Assembly: GCF_003014675.1 (NCBI RefSeq)
Contig: NZ_PYAU01000001.1
Span: 806,001 to 870,000 of the forward strand
Length of the DNA: 64,000 nucleotides
Direction of reading: 5' to 3'
Source: Labedella gwakjiensis
Lineage (GTDB): Bacteria; Actinomycetota; Actinomycetes; Actinomycetales; Microbacteriaceae
Part shown: piece after piece, positions 4,623-16,912 of the stretch
How the letters are laid out: each line of letters opens with the position of its first letter
How positions within the stretch are numbered: the stretch's first letter is position 1
Translations under genes and position numbers: made by a program
Notes under the pieces: model-generated
Told to the model about the DNA's origin: nothing
Databases searched by the model: none
Seen by the model: only the letters and a program-made list of their open reading frames with translations

Positions 4623-4753
4623 GGACGCCCGAGGAACTCGTCGCGACGGTGACCCCCCGGGGGTGGTCTCTCGCGTATACGCGGACAGGGTCCATACTGG
4701 GACGGTTCCCCGCCCGCACCGTTCGGGCGGCGCGACGGCTCGGAGGAGGCGAC
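4623..4753 (+). promoter_or_regulatory. Leader/promoter region of the devS-devR pair
   Basis: This gap contains a perfect 12-bp palindrome CGCGTATACGCG at 4672-4683 and a C-run/G-run inverted repeat around 4651-4664 that could fold as a weak terminator for the adh operon. A poor DevR-box lookalike, GGGACGGTTCCCCG, starts at 4699. The ribosome site GGAGGAGG sits just before the GTG start at 4754. A separate promoter for the kinase is plausible but no convincing -35/-10 pair is visible. Confidence 0.35.
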
Positions 4754-6448
4754 GTGGACGACGTTCGAGGGACCGTCACCCCCGCACACGACGATGGGGT
4801 CCCGCACCGCGAGGAGTGGAGTCGCCGCGTCCTCGAGTCCCAGGAGCGGCTCCGTGCCCTCATCACGGCCAATCGCGCGATGGTCGACGAGCTCGACCTC
4901 GAGCGCGTGCTGCGCACGATCGTCCAGGCGGCCGTCGACCTCGTGCACGCCCGCTACGGCGCACTCGGGGTGATCGGGCAGGAGGGCGGGCTCGAGCGCT
5001 TCATCCACGTGGGCGGCGACGCCGACATGCCGGAGCGGATCGGACACTATCCGCGCGGCCACGGCCTGCTCGGAGCGCTCATCGACGATCCGCGTCCGAT
5101 CCGCCTCGAGCACCTCTCCTCCGACGACAGGTCGAGCGGCTTCCCCGCCGGTCACCCGCCGATGGACAGCTTCCTCGGGGTCCCCATCCGCGTCCGCGAC
5201 GAGGTGTTCGGCAACCTCTATCTCACGGAGCACGGCGAGGGCGGCTTCTCGGCGGAGGACGAGGAGTTGCTCATCGCGCTCGCGGCCACGGCCGGCGTCG
5301 CGATCGACAACGCGCGGCTCTTCCAGGAGACGCGCCGGCGGCAGCAGTGGAGCGCCGCGTCTGCCCAGATCGCCGCGTCCCTGCTGTCGGGCGGTCGGGA
5401 CGACGCCCTGTCGACGATCGCGGAGACCACGGCACAGCTCGCGGACGCCGACGTCGTGTGCGTCGTCCTCCCCCACGGCGCGCGCGACCTCGTCGTCGAC
5501 ACCGTCGGCGGCATCGACGGCGACAGGTTCCGCACGATGGTGATCCCCCGGGAGGGGAGCACGATCGCGGCAGCGCTCGACTCGGGCGCCCCCGTCCGAC
5601 GAGACGATCTCGGAGCGGTCGACACCGCCGAGCCCGACGCCCCGCTCATGCTCGGACCGTCGATGATCATCCCGCTCATCGCCGACGACACGACGATCGG
5701 CGCGCTCGCGATCTCCCGCCTCGCGGGGCGCAGGCGGTTCTCCGACTCCGACCTCGAGCTCGCGTCCGACTTCGCCGACCAGTGCGCGATCGCGCTCGCC
5801 CTCGAACGTGGACGCGTCGACCGGGAGAAGCTCTCGGTGCTCCAGGACAGGGGGCGCATCGCACGCGACCTCCACGATCACGTCATCCAGCGACTCTTCG
5901 GAGCGGGGCTCACCCTCCAGGCCGTGGGCTCGGAGATCGAGGACGCCCGCCTCCGGGAGCGGGTCGAGGAGCAGGTCACCGCCCTCGACGAGGCGATCGG
6001 TTCGATCCGCACGGCGATCTTCGCGCTCACCTCCCGGCGGCCGAAGGAGTCGGTCAAGCACCGCATCATGGACGTCGTCACGGCGCACGACACGACGACG
6101 GCTCCGGCGCCGCGCCTCATCCTCAGCGGACCGATCGACTCGACGGTCACCGAGGACATGGTCGCCGACGTCCTCGCCGTCGTGTCCGAGGGCGTCGCGA
6201 ACGTGGCGCGTCACGCCCAGGCGTCCTCCTCGACCGTGAGCGTCTCGGTCGAGGCCGACAGACTCGTCATCCGCGTGGAGGATGACGGTGTCGGCCCAGG
6301 CTCCGGTTCCCGCCGCAGCGGAACGGCGAACCTCGAGGAACGCGCGGCGCGGTGGGGCGGCTCGTCGCACCTCCGGCCACGGGACCCGAACGGTTCCGTC
6401 CTCGACTGGACCATCCCCCTCCACCGCACGACCGGAAGGCGAGCATGA
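4754..6448 (+). CDS. devS: DevS/DosS-like GAF-GAF sensor histidine kinase
   Basis: Soluble 564-residue sensor kinase. GAF-A (about 45-195) has the DosS-like run ERFIHVGGD, GHGLLGALIDDPRPIRLEHL and GHPPMDSFLGVPIRVRDEVF; His134 aligns with the proximal heme ligand of mycobacterial DosS/DosT. GAF-B spans roughly 210-350. The HisKA_3 dimerisation helix reads DRGRIARDLHDHVIQRLFGA with phospho-acceptor His374, followed by an HATPase domain (EGVANVARHAQA and VEDDGVGPG). There are no transmembrane segments. GTG at 4754 is chosen because GGAGGAGG precedes it. The stop overlaps devR by 4 bp. Heme-based sensing of O2, NO or CO is inferred from the family. Confidence 0.93.
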   Translation: MDDVRGTVTPAHDDGVPHREEWSRRVLESQERLRALITANRAMVDELDLERVLRTIVQAAVDLVHARYGALGVIGQEGGLERFIHVGGDADMPERIGHYPRGHGLLGALIDDPRPIRLEHLSSDDRSSGFPAGHPPMDSFLGVPIRVRDEVFGNLYLTEHGEGGFSAEDEELLIALAATAGVAIDNARLFQETRRRQQWSAASAQIAASLLSGGRDDALSTIAETTAQLADADVVCVVLPHGARDLVVDTVGGIDGDRFRTMVIPREGSTIAAALDSGAPVRRDDLGAVDTAEPDAPLMLGPSMIIPLIADDTTIGALAISRLAGRRRFSDSDLELASDFADQCAIALALERGRVDREKLSVLQDRGRIARDLHDHVIQRLFGAGLTLQAVGSEIEDARLRERVEEQVTALDEAIGSIRTAIFALTSRRPKESVKHRIMDVVTAHDTTTAPAPRLILSGPIDSTVTEDMVADVLAVVSEGVANVARHAQASSSTVSVSVEADRLVIRVEDDGVGPGSGSRRSGTANLEERAARWGGSSHLRPRDPNGSVLDWTIPLHRTTGRRA

Positions 6449-7071
6449 CGACCGTATTCCTCATCGACGACCACGAGGTGGTCAGGCAGGGCATCGCCGG
6501 CCTCATCGGACGCGAGCCCGACCTCGACGTGGTCGGGGAGGCGGCCACCGCACGGGAGGGGCGCCAGCGCGTCGCCGCCACGCTTCCCGACGTCGCGGTC
6601 ATCGACGTCCGGCTGCCCGACGGCAACGGAATCGACCTGTGCCGCGACATCCGGTCTGCGCACCCGGAGGTGCACTGCCTCATCCTCACCGCGTACGACG
6701 ACGACGACGCGATGTACGCCGCCGCGATCGCCGGTGCCGCCGGCTACGTGCTGAAGGACATCCGCGGGCAGAAGCTCGTCGAGAGCATCCGCGCGGTGGC
6801 CGCCGGCATCCGGCTCATGGATCCGCAGGTCCGTCGCAGCGTCGTCACCGAGTCGGCGCCGCCGTCCGACCGGGTCGAGGTGGCCCTGTCGCTGCGGGAG
6901 CGCCAGGTGCTCGACCACATCGCCGACGGCCTCACCAACCGGCAGATCGGCGAGAAGCTCGGGCTCGCCGAGAAGACGGTGAAGAACTACGTGTCATCCC
7001 TCCTCGACAAGCTCGGCATGGAGCGGCGCACGCAGGCCGCGGTCTACGGGGCGGAGCACCGCGCCGACTGA
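6445..7071 (+). CDS. devR: DevR/DosR-like response regulator (NarL family)
   Basis: The 208-residue protein has a receiver domain with the acidic pair DD at 8-9 and phospho-acceptor Asp54 in VAVIDVRLPDG. The LuxR/NarL helix-turn-helix reads LTNRQIGEKLGLAEKTVKNY, followed by SSLLDKLGMERRTQAAV, nearly the same as the DNA-recognition helix of mycobacterial DosR. That identity predicts recognition of GGGAC-type boxes, and five such boxes lie downstream in this window. ATG overlaps the devS stop. It should act as transcriptional activator of the neighbouring stress and fermentation genes under low oxygen. Confidence 0.95.
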   Translation: MTTVFLIDDHEVVRQGIAGLIGREPDLDVVGEAATAREGRQRVAATLPDVAVIDVRLPDGNGIDLCRDIRSAHPEVHCLILTAYDDDDAMYAAAIAGAAGYVLKDIRGQKLVESIRAVAAGIRLMDPQVRRSVVTESAPPSDRVEVALSLRERQVLDHIADGLTNRQIGEKLGLAEKTVKNYVSSLLDKLGMERRTQAAVYGAEHRAD

Positions 7072-7575: not shown

Positions 7576-7677
7576 GATCGGCTCCTCCTGTCGGCGAGCG
7601 GCCCGAGTGGCGGCTGCCTCCGTCCGAGCATCCCGTGCAACCGCCCGCGGGGACAGGGCCGAACGTCCCGCCGGAAC

Positions 7678-7691
7678 GGGACCAACGCCTC
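7678..7691 (+). promoter_or_regulatory. Candidate DevR/DosR box between divergent usp genes
   Basis: GGGACCAACGCCTC, ending 88 bp before the stress gene at 7780 and about 100 bp from the divergent one starting at 7575. It shares the pattern GGGACC-WW-CGCCTC with the site at 16038. The first half matches the mycobacterial DosR consensus well; the second half is weaker. Confidence 0.5.
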
Positions 7692-7779: not shown

Positions 7780-8790
7780 ATGACCAGCACGACCAGCACG
7801 CATCCGACTCTCCTCCCCGCCATCGAGGCCGGACCGAGACGCACCTCCGAACGAGTCGTCCTCGCGATCGACCGGAGCGCGGCATCCGACGCGGCACTCC
7901 TGTGGACCGTGGACCGGGCGCAGCGGACGCCCGTCGAGGTGGACGTCGTCACGGTCGTGAAGCCGGATCCCGTCCTCGGTGACGTCATGATCGAGGAGTT
8001 CATGCTGAACGGTGAACAACTGCTGCACCACGCGGCGGACGTCCTGCGGCCAGCGGTCGCCGCCGAATCGCTTCGAACCCTCCTCGCGTGGGGCTCACCC
8101 GCGCGGGAGATCCTCGCCGCGGCGGAGGGGGCCGATCTGCTCGTGATCGGGACGGCAAACGCCACCCGTCACCCCGTCTTCCATCACCCGTCCATCGCCG
8201 CCCGACTCGCGACGGTCGCACGCTGCGATCTGGCGATCGTCCCGGCGGGCTGGCACGCGCATCCCGACTCGGGACCCGTGGTCGCGGGCGTCGCGGGAGA
8301 CGACGGCGATCGGGTGATCATCGCCATCGCGGCCTGTGAGGCCGAGCGACTCGGCGCGCGACTCGTCCTCGTCCACTCGTGGGAGAGCCCGTCGCTCACT
8401 GCGCTCCTCAGCAGTGGGCTCACGATTGACGTCGCCGTCGTCGAAGAGAAGCACCAGCACATGCTCGACGACGCGGTGTCCGGCATCGCGGAGGCCTTCC
8501 CCGAGTTGTCGGTATCCGGCGTCCTCTCCGACGTCCCAGCGAGTCGTGCCCTCCGCACGGCCGCCTCCGATGCCGCCCTGCTCGTCGTGGGTTCGCACGG
8601 CTGGAGCGCCCTCGATCGGTTCTTCGTCGGCTCGACGAGCCACGATCTCGCGACATCGCCGGTCTGTCCCACCCTCGTCATCCGGTCGCGGAGCCATCGC
8701 GCCGTACGGTCGACGACGGCGATCCCGGACACCGGAGCGATCGACGGGACCAAAGGCCCTGGGCTGGTCGAGCCTCACGGATCAGTCTGA
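7780..8790 (+). CDS. Universal stress protein, tandem UspA domains
   Basis: 336 residues with two UspA-like halves. The first (about 22-155) opens with RVVLAIDRSAAS but its glycine loop is degenerate (LLVIGTANATRHPVFHHPS), so nucleotide binding there is doubtful. The second (about 165-310) has the loop VVGSHGWSALDRFFVGSTSH, then CPTLVI. Typical actinobacterial tandem Usp architecture. A candidate DevR box ends 88 bp upstream of the ATG, and another box for the next gene overlaps this gene's 3' end. AAAGGACACG before the ATG gives a modest ribosome site. Confidence 0.88.
   Translation: MTSTTSTHPTLLPAIEAGPRRTSERVVLAIDRSAASDAALLWTVDRAQRTPVEVDVVTVVKPDPVLGDVMIEEFMLNGEQLLHHAADVLRPAVAAESLRTLLAWGSPAREILAAAEGADLLVIGTANATRHPVFHHPSIAARLATVARCDLAIVPAGWHAHPDSGPVVAGVAGDDGDRVIIAIAACEAERLGARLVLVHSWESPSLTALLSSGLTIDVAVVEEKHQHMLDDAVSGIAEAFPELSVSGVLSDVPASRALRTAASDAALLVVGSHGWSALDRFFVGSTSHDLATSPVCPTLVIRSRSHRAVRSTTAIPDTGAIDGTKGPGLVEPHGSV
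8746..8760 (+). promoter_or_regulatory. DevR/DosR box upstream of usp-PPOX pair
   Basis: GGGACCAAAGGCCCT, a near-exact match to the mycobacterial DosR-regulon motif. It lies in the 3' coding end of the preceding stress gene and ends 77 bp before the ATG at 8838. Confidence 0.75.
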
Positions 8791-8837: not shown

Positions 8838-9731
8838 ATGAGCACACCGACGGCGGCCGCACGGCCGGCCCCCTTGCCCCACGACCCCGCGCGGCGCCGT
8901 CCGACGATCGGCGTCGGCGTCGACGAGTCCGTGGAGTCCTCTGTCGCCCTCGCGTGGGCCCTCGATCGGGCGAAGCGCACGGGCGACGCCGTCCGACTCG
9001 TGACGGTCGTCGAGGAGGAAGCCGGATCGATGGGCGCCGAGTACGGCCGGGAGGTCACGCGTGGAGCGGCCGAACGGATGTCCGAGGTCGCTCGGACGGT
9101 GCACGCGGCGGCTCCCGACGCGCGGCTCGACATCGAGATCGTCCACGGTCCGGTCGCGTGGGCCCTCGCCCGAGCGGTGACGGACGGCGACCTCCTCGTC
9201 GTGGGCACGCCCGTCGGCGCGGTGCGCGACGAGGCCGCGCCCCGTGTCCTCGGCTCGCGCAGTGTTCAGATCGCCGCCGCCGCACGATGCACGGTGGCCG
9301 TCGTCCCCCCTCTGCTCGGCGATGAGCGTCACGGCGTCGTCGTGGGAGTGGAGACGCCCGCAGACGTCCCGGCCCTGCTCGACCTCGGAATCCGCGAGGC
9401 CCGGCTCCTCGGCGAGCCCCTGCTGCTCGTCCACTGCGCACCCCGAGACGACACGGCGGCAGACGGTGTCCTCGCGGCCGTGGAGCACGCGCTGCGGGAA
9501 CGGTCCGATGATGTCGAGATCTCGGCCCGCCGCCTGTTCCGGTCGCCGGTCGACGGGCTCGTCGAGCTCGCGCGCCACGCCTCGCTCCTCGTGATGGGGC
9601 GATCCCGCGCGCCCGAGCTCAATCCGCTCGGGACGACCTGCCACCGCGTCCTGTCGCAGGCCCCGGCCCCCGTCCTCATCGCCGATGCGGGAAGACCGGG
9701 CGCCGGCTCCCGCGACGCCGGAGGCCGATGA
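8838..9731 (+). CDS. Universal stress protein, tandem UspA domains
   Basis: 297-residue tandem UspA protein. Domain one starts TIGVGVDESVESSVALAWAL and contains LLVVGTPVGAV in place of the canonical G-x2-G-x9-G loop; domain two has HGVVVGVETPAD and VMGRSRAPELNPLGTTCHRV. Both ATP loops deviate, so this may be a non-ATP-binding subclass. The ATG follows GAGGAGG and a strong DevR box ends 77 bp upstream. The stop overlaps the PPOX gene start, repeating the usp-PPOX pairing seen near the left edge. Confidence 0.87.
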   Translation: MSTPTAAARPAPLPHDPARRRPTIGVGVDESVESSVALAWALDRAKRTGDAVRLVTVVEEEAGSMGAEYGREVTRGAAERMSEVARTVHAAAPDARLDIEIVHGPVAWALARAVTDGDLLVVGTPVGAVRDEAAPRVLGSRSVQIAAAARCTVAVVPPLLGDERHGVVVGVETPADVPALLDLGIREARLLGEPLLLVHCAPRDDTAADGVLAAVEHALRERSDDVEISARRLFRSPVDGLVELARHASLLVMGRSRAPELNPLGTTCHRVLSQAPAPVLIADAGRPGAGSRDAGGR

Positions 9732-12837: not shown

Positions 12838-13650
12838 TCACCAGACGGTCAGGCCGCGGGAGCGGAACTGCCCGCGCACGCGCTCGAGCAAGGCGTCGTC
12901 GGGTGCCCGCGTGTCCGCGAGGGTGTACGGAACGCCGAGCCGCCGCCACTTCGACGCCCCCATCTGGTGGAACGGGAGCACCTCGACGCGTTCGACCGTC
13001 GACCACCGCGCGACGATGTCCGCGACGGCCTCGACGTTGTCCCACGCGTCGGTGAGGCCGGGCACGAGGACGAACCGGATCCACATGCGGTTCCCGCGTG
13101 AGGCGAGGCGGTCGCCGAAGTCGATGGTCGGGGCGAGCTCGCGTGTCGTCACGTCCTCGTAGATCTCCGGGATCCCCGACTTCACGTCGAGCAGCACGAG
13201 GGCGGTGTCGTCGAGGAGCGCGTCGGATGCGCGAGCGCCCAGGTTTCCCGACGTGTCGAGCGCCGTGTGCACGCCGAGCTCGCGGCAGGCCGCGAAGATC
13301 CTCTCGACGAACGCCGGCTGCATGAGGGGTTCACCTCCGGAGAGGGTGACTCCCCCGCCCGTCGCCTCGAAGACCGCACGGTAGCGCCGGATCCGGTCGA
13401 CGATCGCGTCGAGGCTCGTGTGGCTCCCGTCGTGCATGTGCCACGTGTCGGGGTTCTGGCAGTATCGGCAGCGCATCGGGCATCCCGAGAGGAAGAGGGT
13501 CATCCGCGTTCCGGGGCCGTCGACGGCCGTCACGAGCTCCCACGAGTGCACGATCCCGGCCTCCCCCGCGCGCCGAGCAGCGAGCTCGAGGGATCGCGCC
13601 GAGGTGTCGGCGGAGGAGACCGAGCCGACCGTCCCGATCGTCACGTCCAC
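12838..13650 (-). CDS. pflA: Pyruvate formate-lyase activating enzyme
   Basis: 270-residue radical-SAM protein. The [4Fe-4S] cysteines are in SGCPMRCRYCQNPDTW, preceded by DGPGTRMTLFLSGC; the glycine-rich SAM-binding stretch is TGGGVTLSGGEP. It generates the glycyl radical on PflB under anoxia using SAM. GTG at 13650 is the likely start; another GTG lies two codons inside. It follows pflB by 3 bp on the same strand, so the pair is an operon read leftward. Confidence 0.95.
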   Translation of the reverse strand: MDVTIGTVGSVSSADTSARSLELAARRAGEAGIVHSWELVTAVDGPGTRMTLFLSGCPMRCRYCQNPDTWHMHDGSHTSLDAIVDRIRRYRAVFEATGGGVTLSGGEPLMQPAFVERIFAACRELGVHTALDTSGNLGARASDALLDDTALVLLDVKSGIPEIYEDVTTRELAPTIDFGDRLASRGNRMWIRFVLVPGLTDAWDNVEAVADIVARWSTVERVEVLPFHQMGASKWRRLGVPYTLADTRAPDDALLERVRGQFRSRGLTVW

Positions 13651-13653
13651 GAT

Positions 13654-15957
13654 CTAGACCGACCCGTGGAAGGTGCGGCTGATGACGTCCTCCTGCTGCT
13701 CACGGGTGAGGCGGACGAAGTTGACGGCGTAGCCGGACACGCGGATCGTCAACTGCGGGTACTCCTCCGGGTGCTCCATCGCGTCGACGAGCGTCTCGCG
13801 CGTGAGCACGTTGACGTTCAGGTGGTACCCGCCCGCGCCGATGTAGACGTCGAGCAGTCCGGTCAGGTTGGTCGTGCGCTCTTCCCGCGTGCGGCCGAGG
13901 CCCGCCGGGACGACCGTCGTCGTGAGGGAGATCCCGTCCTGCGCCGAGTCGTAGGGCAGCTTCGCGACGCTCAGCGCCGACGCGAGCATGCCGTGCGTGT
14001 CCCGGCCGTTCATGGGATTCGCTCCCGGGGCGAAGGGTGCGCCGGCGCGGCGTCCGTCCGGGGTGTTCCCCGTCGTCTTGCCGTAGACGACGTTCGACGT
14101 GATCGTCAGGACCGACTGGGTGTGCACGGCGCCACGGTAGGCGGGGTGCGTCCGCAGCATCGTCATGAACCGTTCGACGACCTCCACGGCGATGGCGTCG
14201 GCGCGATCGTCGTCGTTCCCGTAGGTGGGGTAGTCGCCCTCGACGAGGTAGTCCACGACGAGCCCGCGATCGTCGCGCACCGGGGTGACCCGGGCGTAGC
14301 GGATGGCGGAGAGCGAGTCGACGACGACGGAGAGGCCCGCGATCCCGCACGCCATGGTCCGGAGCACCTCTCGGTCGTGCAGGGCCATCTCGAGGCGCTC
14401 GTACGCGTACTTGTCGTGCATGTAGTGGATGCAGTTGAGCGCATCGATGTACACGTCCGCGAGCCACTCGAGCAGGTCGAGGTAGGCGGTCCACACGGTG
14501 TCGTACTCGAGCACGTCGCCCCGCACGGGCTCGCGATCCGGGACGACGAGTTCCCCCGTGATCTCGTCGCGCCCGCCGTTGATGGCGTAGAGCAGAGCCT
14601 TCGCGATGTTCACGCGGGCGCCGAAGAACTGCATCTGCTTGCCCACGCGCATCGGTGACACGCAGCACGCGATCGCCGCGTCGTCGCCCCACGACCCGCG
14701 GATGAGGGCGTCGGACTCGTACTGGATCGCCGAGGTGTCGATCGACACCTGAGCGCAGAACCGCTTGAACCCCTCCGGCAGCTCCGGCGACCACAGCACC
14801 GTGAGGTTCGGCTCGGGCGCCGGCCCCAGGTCGTACAGGGTCTGGAGGAAGCGGAAGGCCGTCTTCGTGACGAGCGGGCGGCCGTCCTCCCCGATCCCGC
14901 CCAGGGTCTCCGTGACCCAGGTGGGGTCGCCGGAGAAGAGGGCGTCGTACTCGGGGGTGCGGAGGAAGCGCACGATGCGGAGCTTGATGACGAGGTCGTC
15001 GATGAGCTCCTGCGCGGCCGATTCGTCGAGGAGACCCGCGGCGATGTCCCGCTCGAGGTACACGTCGAGGAACGCCGTGTTCCGTCCGAACGACATGGCC
15101 GCGCCGTTCTGCTCCTTCACCGCGCCGAGGTAGGCGAAGTAGAGCCACTGCACCGCCTCGCCGGCGTCCGCTGCGGGCCGTGAGATGTCGAAGCCGTAGG
15201 ACGCGGCCATCGTCATGAGCTCGCGCAGGGCACGGATCTGCTCGGCGTTCTCCTCCCGTTCCCTGATCACGTCCTCGGTCGACGGCAGGCCGTCGAGCTC
15301 TGCCCGCTCCTCGCGCTTCGCCGCGATCAGCCTGTCGACACCGTAGAGGGCGACGCGCCTGTAGTCGCCGATGATGCGCCCGCGCCCGTAGGCGTCGGGG
15401 AGACCCGTGATCAGGTGGCTGTGGCGCGCCCTCTTCACGGACGGAGGGTAGACGTCGAAGACGCCGTCGTTGTGGGTCTTGCGGTAGCGGGTGAACACCG
15501 TCTCGAGGTCGGCCGGCACGTCGTAGCCGTACGTCTCGAGCGCGTTCGCCACGAGTCGCCACCCGCCGAAGGGCATGATGGCGCGCTTGAGCGGGGCATC
15601 GGTCTGCAGTCCCACGATGATCTCCCGCGACCGGTCGATGTACCCGGGGGCGTGCGCCGTGATGCTCGATGGCGTCGTCGTGTCGACGTCGAGCACGCCG
15701 CGTTCCCGCTCGGCGGGGAAGAGCGAGGAGACGCTCTCCCACACCGCCTGCGTCCGCGCGGTCGGTCCGGCGAGGAATCCGGCGTCACCGGTATACGGCG
15801 AGACGTTCCGCTGGATGAAGTCGCGCACGTCGATGCGCTCCGTCCAGGTACCGGGCGCGAATCCCCGCCACGGCCGCTCGGAGTCGTCATCGCCCGGACC
15901 GGTGTCGCCGGAGTGGTGGCCGAGCAGGTCGTGAGGGGAGATGTCGCTGATCGTCAT
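13654..15957 (-). CDS. pflB: Formate C-acetyltransferase (pyruvate formate-lyase)
   Basis: 767-residue glycyl radical enzyme converting pyruvate and CoA to acetyl-CoA and formate. The adjacent active-site cysteines are Cys431-Cys432 in [12 protein letters not shown], and the radical glycine is Gly742 in [14 protein letters not shown] near the C-terminus, both in the family's expected positions. ATG 15957 is chosen because the conserved N-terminus (WRGFAPGTW) starts shortly after; the frame continues upstream only as an artefact. A DevR box lies 37 bp upstream and another 81 bp upstream. No formate channel or formate dehydrogenase gene is nearby. An oxygen-sensitive PFL is unusual in a lineage generally regarded as aerobic. 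Confidence 0.97.
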
Positions 15958-15993: not shown

Positions 15994-16007
15994 GGGACTT
16001 TGGGCCC
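15994..16007 (-). promoter_or_regulatory. DevR/DosR box upstream of pflB
   Basis: GGGACTTTGGGCCC (plus-strand reading), 37 bp from the pflB ATG. It agrees with the mycobacterial core GGGACTTNNGNCCC. A half-site, GGGACCTACC on the minus strand at about 15966-15975, lies even closer to pflB. Confidence 0.75.
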
Positions 16008-16037
16008 GTCGCCCGGCGGTTCCCCTGCGACGGGCGA

Positions 16038-16051
16038 GGGACCTTCGCCTC
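16038..16051 (+). promoter_or_regulatory. DevR/DosR box upstream of 46-residue gene
   Basis: GGGACCTTCGCCTC, ending 80 bp before the ATG at 16132, the same spacing as at 8746 and 16228. It is also about 80 bp from pflB on the other side, so it may serve both. Confidence 0.6.
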
Positions 16052-16131
16052 TCGTCGCGCGGTGACGCACCGAACACGATCGACGATGACGGAAAGACGA
16101 CGAAAGACGACGAAAGACGAGGAGGACGACC

Positions 16132-16272
16132 ATGCAGAAGCACGTGGACGACGAACAGTGGACCGCGCTCAAGCGAGCGTTCCGGCAGCGCTTCGACGCG
16201 CGCACCGCGGCCTCGGCTCGACGGCGCGGGACCTTGGGCCCTACGACCGAGGACGACGGCTCGCAACACTGA
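16132..16272 (+). CDS. Small charged protein of 46 residues, probably DevR-regulated
   Basis: Short frame beginning [20 protein letters not shown] and ending GSQH. It is supported by a strong AGGAGG-type ribosome site six bases before ATG and a DevR box 80 bp upstream. The first 30 residues look like one amphipathic, Arg/Lys-rich helix; the tail is acidic. There is no membrane segment and no family I recognise. A second DevR box (16228-16241) overlaps its codons for GTLGP and serves the next gene. Three GACGAAA repeats lie just upstream (16090-16119). Whether the protein is stable is unknown. Confidence 0.55.
16228..16241 (+). promoter_or_regulatory. DevR/DosR box upstream of DoxX-like gene
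   Basis: GGGACCTTGGGCCC, ending 80 bp before the ATG at 16322, inside the 3' part of the small preceding frame. Confidence 0.75.
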
Positions 16273-16321: not shown

Positions 16322-16912
16322 ATGACCGCCACAGCCCACCGTTTGAGCACCACCCCCCGGACGGCTCCGCTCGAACCGCGGGCGCTCGCCGCCGAGAAGA
16401 GCATCGTGACGACCACCACCGGTCGCCGCAGCCTCGCCGTTCTCCGCCTCGCGACCGGTTTCATCTTCCTGTGGGCGTTCCTCGACAAGACGTTCGGTCT
16501 CGGCTTCTCGACCCCGGTCGAGCGGGCGTGGATCAACGGCGGGGCGCCGGCGCAGGGCTTCCTCATGAGCGAGGGCGTGACCGGACCGTTCAAGGGCTTC
16601 TTCGCGAGCCTCGCGACGCCCCTCACCGATTGGCTCTTCATGGCCGGCATGCTCGGCATCGGTGTGGCGGTCATGGCGGGCGTCGGCCTGCGGATCAGCG
16701 CCGTCGCGGGCACCGCGATGATGCTCCTCATGTACATCGCCGAGTGGCCGTTCGCGGCGTACGCCGCCTCGACGAACCCTCTCGTCGACTACCACATCAT
16801 CTACGCACTCGCCCTGATCGTGGTGGCCGCGACCGCCGCCGGAGACACTTGGGGTCTCGGCGGATGGTGGAAGAGCCTCCCCCTCGTCAAGGCTCAGCGC
16901 TGGCTCGTCTGA
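16322..16912 (+). CDS. DoxX/DoxD-like four-helix membrane protein
   Basis: 196 residues. After a hydrophilic N-terminus of about 35 residues come four hydrophobic segments: [20 protein letters not shown], the [20 protein letters not shown] region, [20 protein letters not shown], and [16 protein letters not shown]. Layout and [19 protein letters not shown] match the DoxX/DoxD (thiosulfate:quinone oxidoreductase small subunit-like) family. Ribosome site GGAAGGAAC precedes ATG. The DevR box 80 bp upstream places it in the hypoxia regulon. A quinone-linked redox role is family inference only. Confidence 0.82.

Follow-up and report, generated by a model that had tools for sequence, protein, structure and literature searches.

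The window analysed here, a 64,000-nucleotide stretch of the Labedella gwakjiensis genome, contains a 46-codon ATG-TGA frame on the forward strand (16132–16272), which lies between the divergent pflB and a gene for a DoxX-like membrane protein. The pflB gene, encoding formate C-acetyltransferase (13654–15957, reverse strand), is recognized by TIGR01255 above its cut-off and by PF02901 and PF01228, and is accompanied by pflA, which encodes the PFL-activating enzyme (12838–13650, reverse strand; TIGR02493 above cut-off). The DoxX-like gene (16322–16912, forward strand) is named by resemblance only, because its product is matched by no NCBIfam profile and, at E up to 1, by none in Pfam. Of 398 Microbacteriaceae genomes, about 40 gave a match to the DoxX-like protein. 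Both DevR and DevS are encoded inside the window. The devR product (6439–7071, forward strand) combines Response_reg and GerE domains, and its best solved relative is the DevR of Mycobacterium tuberculosis (3c3w, E 3e-65); the devS-type sensor kinase (4649–6448, forward strand; start codon unsettled) contains GAF in two stretches, HisKA_3, and HATPase_c. The distance from devR to the small ORF is about 9 kb.

The ATG of the small ORF is preceded, at a spacing of 6 nt, by an AGGAGG ribosome-binding site (16120–16125, forward strand), which bears out the good spacing claimed when the locus was read from sequence only. The claim that the frame is too short for gene calling does not hold, 141 nt not being under the usual limit; the lower size limit of Prodigal is about 90 nt. 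Directly 5′ of the ribosome site, positions 16090–16119 consist of about three copies of the 10-bp unit cgaaagacga, a repeat that, according to the alignment, is present in neither of the two Labedella congeners that carry pflB. Scans for promoters and terminators, as well as a plasmid search, returned no match.

The window contains three occurrences of the pattern GGGACYTTNGSCYC, all within 15994–16241; shuffles are expected to contain 0.03 occurrences and none of 100 reached three, a significance that is overstated because the pattern was derived from these same three sites. The DevR box GGGACTTTGGGCCC (15994–16007) lies 36 bp from the pflB start, is conserved in both congeners, and could serve the small gene too, 124 bp away. 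The DevR-like box GGGACCTTCGCCTC (16038–16051, forward strand) ends 80 bp before the small-ORF ATG, exactly as the sequence-only reading had it; that reading was right to give the small gene a box of its own, but the core of this box is imperfect, with one mismatch relative to GGGNCNNNNGNCCC. Upstream of the small ORF in both congeners, the strict GGGACNNNNGGCCC core is found. The DevR box for doxX, GGGACCTTGGGCCC (16228–16241), had been overlooked. It lies inside the small gene, where it encodes GTLGP, ends 80 bp before the doxX ATG (16322), and holds the same in-frame place within the small ORF in both congeners. Thus, one DNA stretch serves two genes, a DevR box being kept within coding sequence. 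The supposition that the neighbours share the same geometry is only partly correct: it applies to doxX (80 bp) and to the universal-stress-protein gene that starts at 8838 (78 bp), but not to pflB (36 bp). The box of this universal-stress-protein gene (8746–8759) and further DevR-like sequence at 7656–7691, upstream of another such gene (7780), suggest a DevR-controlled island at about 4.6 to 17 kb of the window.

Three further Labedella genomes were searched, conservation between pflB and doxX in relatives having been proposed earlier as a check on the small gene. L. endophytica (G001) has the frame in the same interval, flanked by pflB and doxX; there it begins with GTG and is 61% identical. 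In a third Labedella species (G003), it is kept beside pflB at about 35% identity, and doxX is an internal-deletion remnant, which retains its first codons and final residues (GWWKSLPIVQKQRWLV) but has lost most of the gene between them; this remnant (L011 1691–1834; G003:C10:75205–75348) has the intact small ORF upstream. The fourth Labedella (G002) is without pflB, doxX, and the frame. Thus, the proposed check came out in favour of the gene, with an intact homologue beside pflB in both congeners that have pflB.

The conserved frame is under protein-level selection in these relatives. When the doxX box is masked, the two closest Labedella sequences give a dN/dS of about 0.35, and the observed protein similarity was reached by none of 20,000 substitution redistributions for any Labedella pair. 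The coding signal, computed on an ungapped 27-codon block, has z of 4.1–4.7 in the small-ORF frame for all three pairs and does not exceed 1.4 in the remaining forward frames; a weaker echo in one antisense frame (z 2.1–3.6) is expected because codon structure is shared. Length differences among the Labedella homologues are whole codons.

These results bear on two explanations in which the small protein as such would have no role. According to one of them, the stretch is no protein gene and comprises the doxX promoter together with a DevR-regulated leader or small RNA, the open frame being incidental. The presence of the doxX DevR box within it, the many chance ORFs of a G+C-rich genome, and the precedent of DrrS, a DosR-regulated small RNA of M. 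tuberculosis (PMC5360333), are compatible with such an arrangement. We nevertheless consider it highly improbable: frame-specific conservation persists when the doxX box is masked, protein relatives remote from doxX occur in 11 other genera, and Rfam gave nothing above gathering score for the small-ORF stretch. The other explanation is a leader peptide, whose translation would act in cis on doxX expression, as the position of the ORF, 49 bp upstream of doxX and overlapping the doxX promoter box, might indicate. This is the least probable alternative of all, as doxX is served by a box and a GGAAGGA-type ribosome site of its own, the ORF is retained in G003 beside the doxX remnant, and the genes downstream of its relatives are unrelated.

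The relatives outside Labedella were collected by profile iteration. The starting profile comprised the three Labedella proteins; weak short-frame matches were then added and the search was iterated, matches being retained only if a short frame contained the core with its Trp, since searches with single sequences and with three sequences gave many weak matches in long unrelated frames. The result is a set of 17 members, distributed over 16 genomes and 12 Microbacteriaceae genera. Seven of these genomes entered in later rounds (G121, G036, and G148, then G333, G278, G391, and G313), and several later members were admitted at weak E-values (0.001–0.006). The members share a core of only about 30 residues that approximates V-[S/T/D]-x-x-x-W-x-x-L-[K/R]; an Arg-rich helix comes next, then a tail that varies. 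In an alignment of 12 members, the Trp is invariant. In the last local profile search, every member had an E-value under 1e-8, the best non-member reaching 2.5e-4, a separation that is not independent, because the members built the profile. Location is more independent evidence for the family than profile scores. Genome G313 carries two members in tandem (L208 1393–1787; G313:C47). Candidates from G318, G039, and G236 were rejected for absence of the core, and those from G225, G007, and G129 for having no box and the wrong frame context. The 83 genomes from other families of the same order that were searched contained no convincing member, and the fetched pflB neighbourhoods of other genomes yielded no additional members. 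The small protein has no profile match above cut-off in Pfam or NCBIfam (including DUF1127, GrcA, and HPF), none above cut-off in PHROGs (best E 0.075 only), and, at E up to 1, no similar sequence in the PDB; a description of the family was not found in the open-licence papers searched. It is therefore apparently an unnamed small-protein family, so far seen only in Microbacteriaceae, whose species live in soil and on plants.

A strict DevR box is located within 330 bp upstream of the member in 8 of the 12 genera, compared with 1.2% of background windows at unrelated loci (binomial P about 2e-13), although some of the counted boxes may belong to divergent neighbours; a strict box is absent in the other 4 genera. 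Among the five later-added genera together with that of G278, a box accompanies the members of G121, G036, and G278/G391, and none accompanies those of G148, G333, and G313. With homologues in both congeners, a frame-specific coding signal, members in 12 genera, and DevR boxes upstream of relatives, the 46-residue ORF (16132–16272) is very probably a real gene, and the earlier identification of a small gene here is upheld. Its control by DevR is probable and, on the evidence of the boxes, well supported.

The neighbours of the family members differ among genera. A member adjoins devR in four genera: it is directly downstream of devSR in G294 and convergent with devR in G062, G116, and G121. 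In G036, it is divergent from a phosphoketolase gene (PF09364); in G148, an L-lactate dehydrogenase gene (TIGR01771 above cut-off) is directly downstream; in G032 and G062, pflB is a few kb away. This adjacency to devR, phosphoketolase, L-lactate dehydrogenase, and pflB points to a low-oxygen and fermentative state. A phosphoketolase-like frame, recognized by motif only, also adjoins devSR and the small gene in G294 (L142 7734–8999), and provides another link of phosphoketolase to the DevR island.

The sequence-only reading had suggested that the protein regulates PFL or DoxX. Dedication to PFL or to the DoxX-like protein, as a regulator or an accessory, would accord with the adjacency of the small gene to both genes in two Labedella, and members are more frequent in pflB-positive than in pflB-negative genomes among those of the bacterial family that were searched (6 of 20 versus 4 of 209; Fisher P 3e-5, uncorrected for relatedness), an excess that fits a common way of life. 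Strict co-occurrence with pflB or doxX is, however, not observed. Four genomes have a member and no pflB (G036, G116, G121, and G148, at a pflB cut-off of E 1e-100), the ORF persists in G003 alongside a doxX remnant, G055 has a divergent pflB/doxX pair without the ORF, and most relatives adjoin neither gene. The suggestion is not supported, and a dedicated role of this kind is improbable. The factor common to the family is DevR, not PFL or DoxX.

The linkage to devR raises another alternative, namely that the small helix, by binding to DevS or DevR, adjusts the response or ends it. The four genera in which a member adjoins devR, and the roughly 9 kb between devR and the ORF in Labedella, agree with a modulator of DevSR. 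It should be noted, however, that the same linkage is also explained by common regulon membership, and that other relatives adjoin phosphoketolase, L-lactate dehydrogenase, or pflB. We regard such a modulator as unlikely, although less so than a partner of PFL or DoxX.

A structure model built from the single sequence contains one helix (residues 7–32, mean pLDDT 75). The protein had been described as a basic amphipathic helix followed by an acidic tail. A helix is indeed predicted and basic charge is usual in the core, but amphipathicity is at chance level (mean hydrophobic moment of the family 0.30, versus 0.29 for shuffled sequences) and the tail is not conserved. DUF1127/YjiS-like proteins are small, arginine-rich, and basic, with one helix containing Trp and Arg, and the family resembles them in being short and basic with one helix bearing these residues; it differs in that no Pfam match to DUF1127 emerged from the members scanned, of which two were run at a threshold of E up to 1 and seven at one of E up to 10. 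GrcA, the autonomous glycyl radical cofactor, is likewise a small protein linked to PFL. GrcA, however, serves as a spare C-terminus of PFL and carries a glycyl radical motif; the 46-mer has neither the motif nor a match. The mycobacterial ribosome hibernation factor RafH is hypoxia-induced and acts in trans, as proposed here for the small protein; it is a two-domain HPF (PMC10799931), to which we found no sequence relation of the 46-mer.

The system as a whole is best compared with the DevR/DosR regulon of M. tuberculosis (3c3w), with which the window shares the type of response regulator, GGGAC-type palindromic boxes, and the proximity of universal stress proteins and anaerobic-metabolism genes. 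The small proteins of that regulon are the nearest counterparts of the 46-mer, which showed no sequence relationship to any solved or catalogued protein. Unlike the M. tuberculosis regulon, that of Labedella appears to include pflBA, genes that M. tuberculosis is not known to have.

Taken together, and judged from genome sequence, the ORF is probably a translated gene of a DevR (DosR-type) regulon and a member of an undescribed Microbacteriaceae small-protein family. By analogy with the known DevRS system, DevS would sense low oxygen or a related signal and activate DevR, which would bind the box at 16038–16051, and perhaps that at 15994–16007 too, and turn on a short transcript. Translation from the good ribosome site would give one basic helix (predicted at about residues 7–32) and a tail that varies among members. 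In the helix, Trp, Leu-Lys/Arg, and Arg positions are nearly constant; it may dock on a partner that belongs to the general hypoxic or fermentative state, rather than on PFL or DoxX, and would modulate this partner in trans. More tentatively, the family, whose members are about 44–71 residues long, might be a recurrent DevR output across Microbacteriaceae that acts as a general fermentation switch via DevSR, the ribosome, or a shared metabolic enzyme; we hold this to be possible and, on balance, rather doubtful. Regulon association alone gives no molecular function.

Small proteins of the DosR regulon are a known kind, and what is described here appears to be an unnamed family of such proteins in another bacterial family. 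No low-oxygen regulator of actinobacteria is better known than DevR/DosR, and most work on it concerns mycobacteria. A protein family linked with DevR boxes, with devR itself, and with fermentation genes in 12 Microbacteriaceae genera offers a non-pathogenic setting for studying the small proteins of such regulons.
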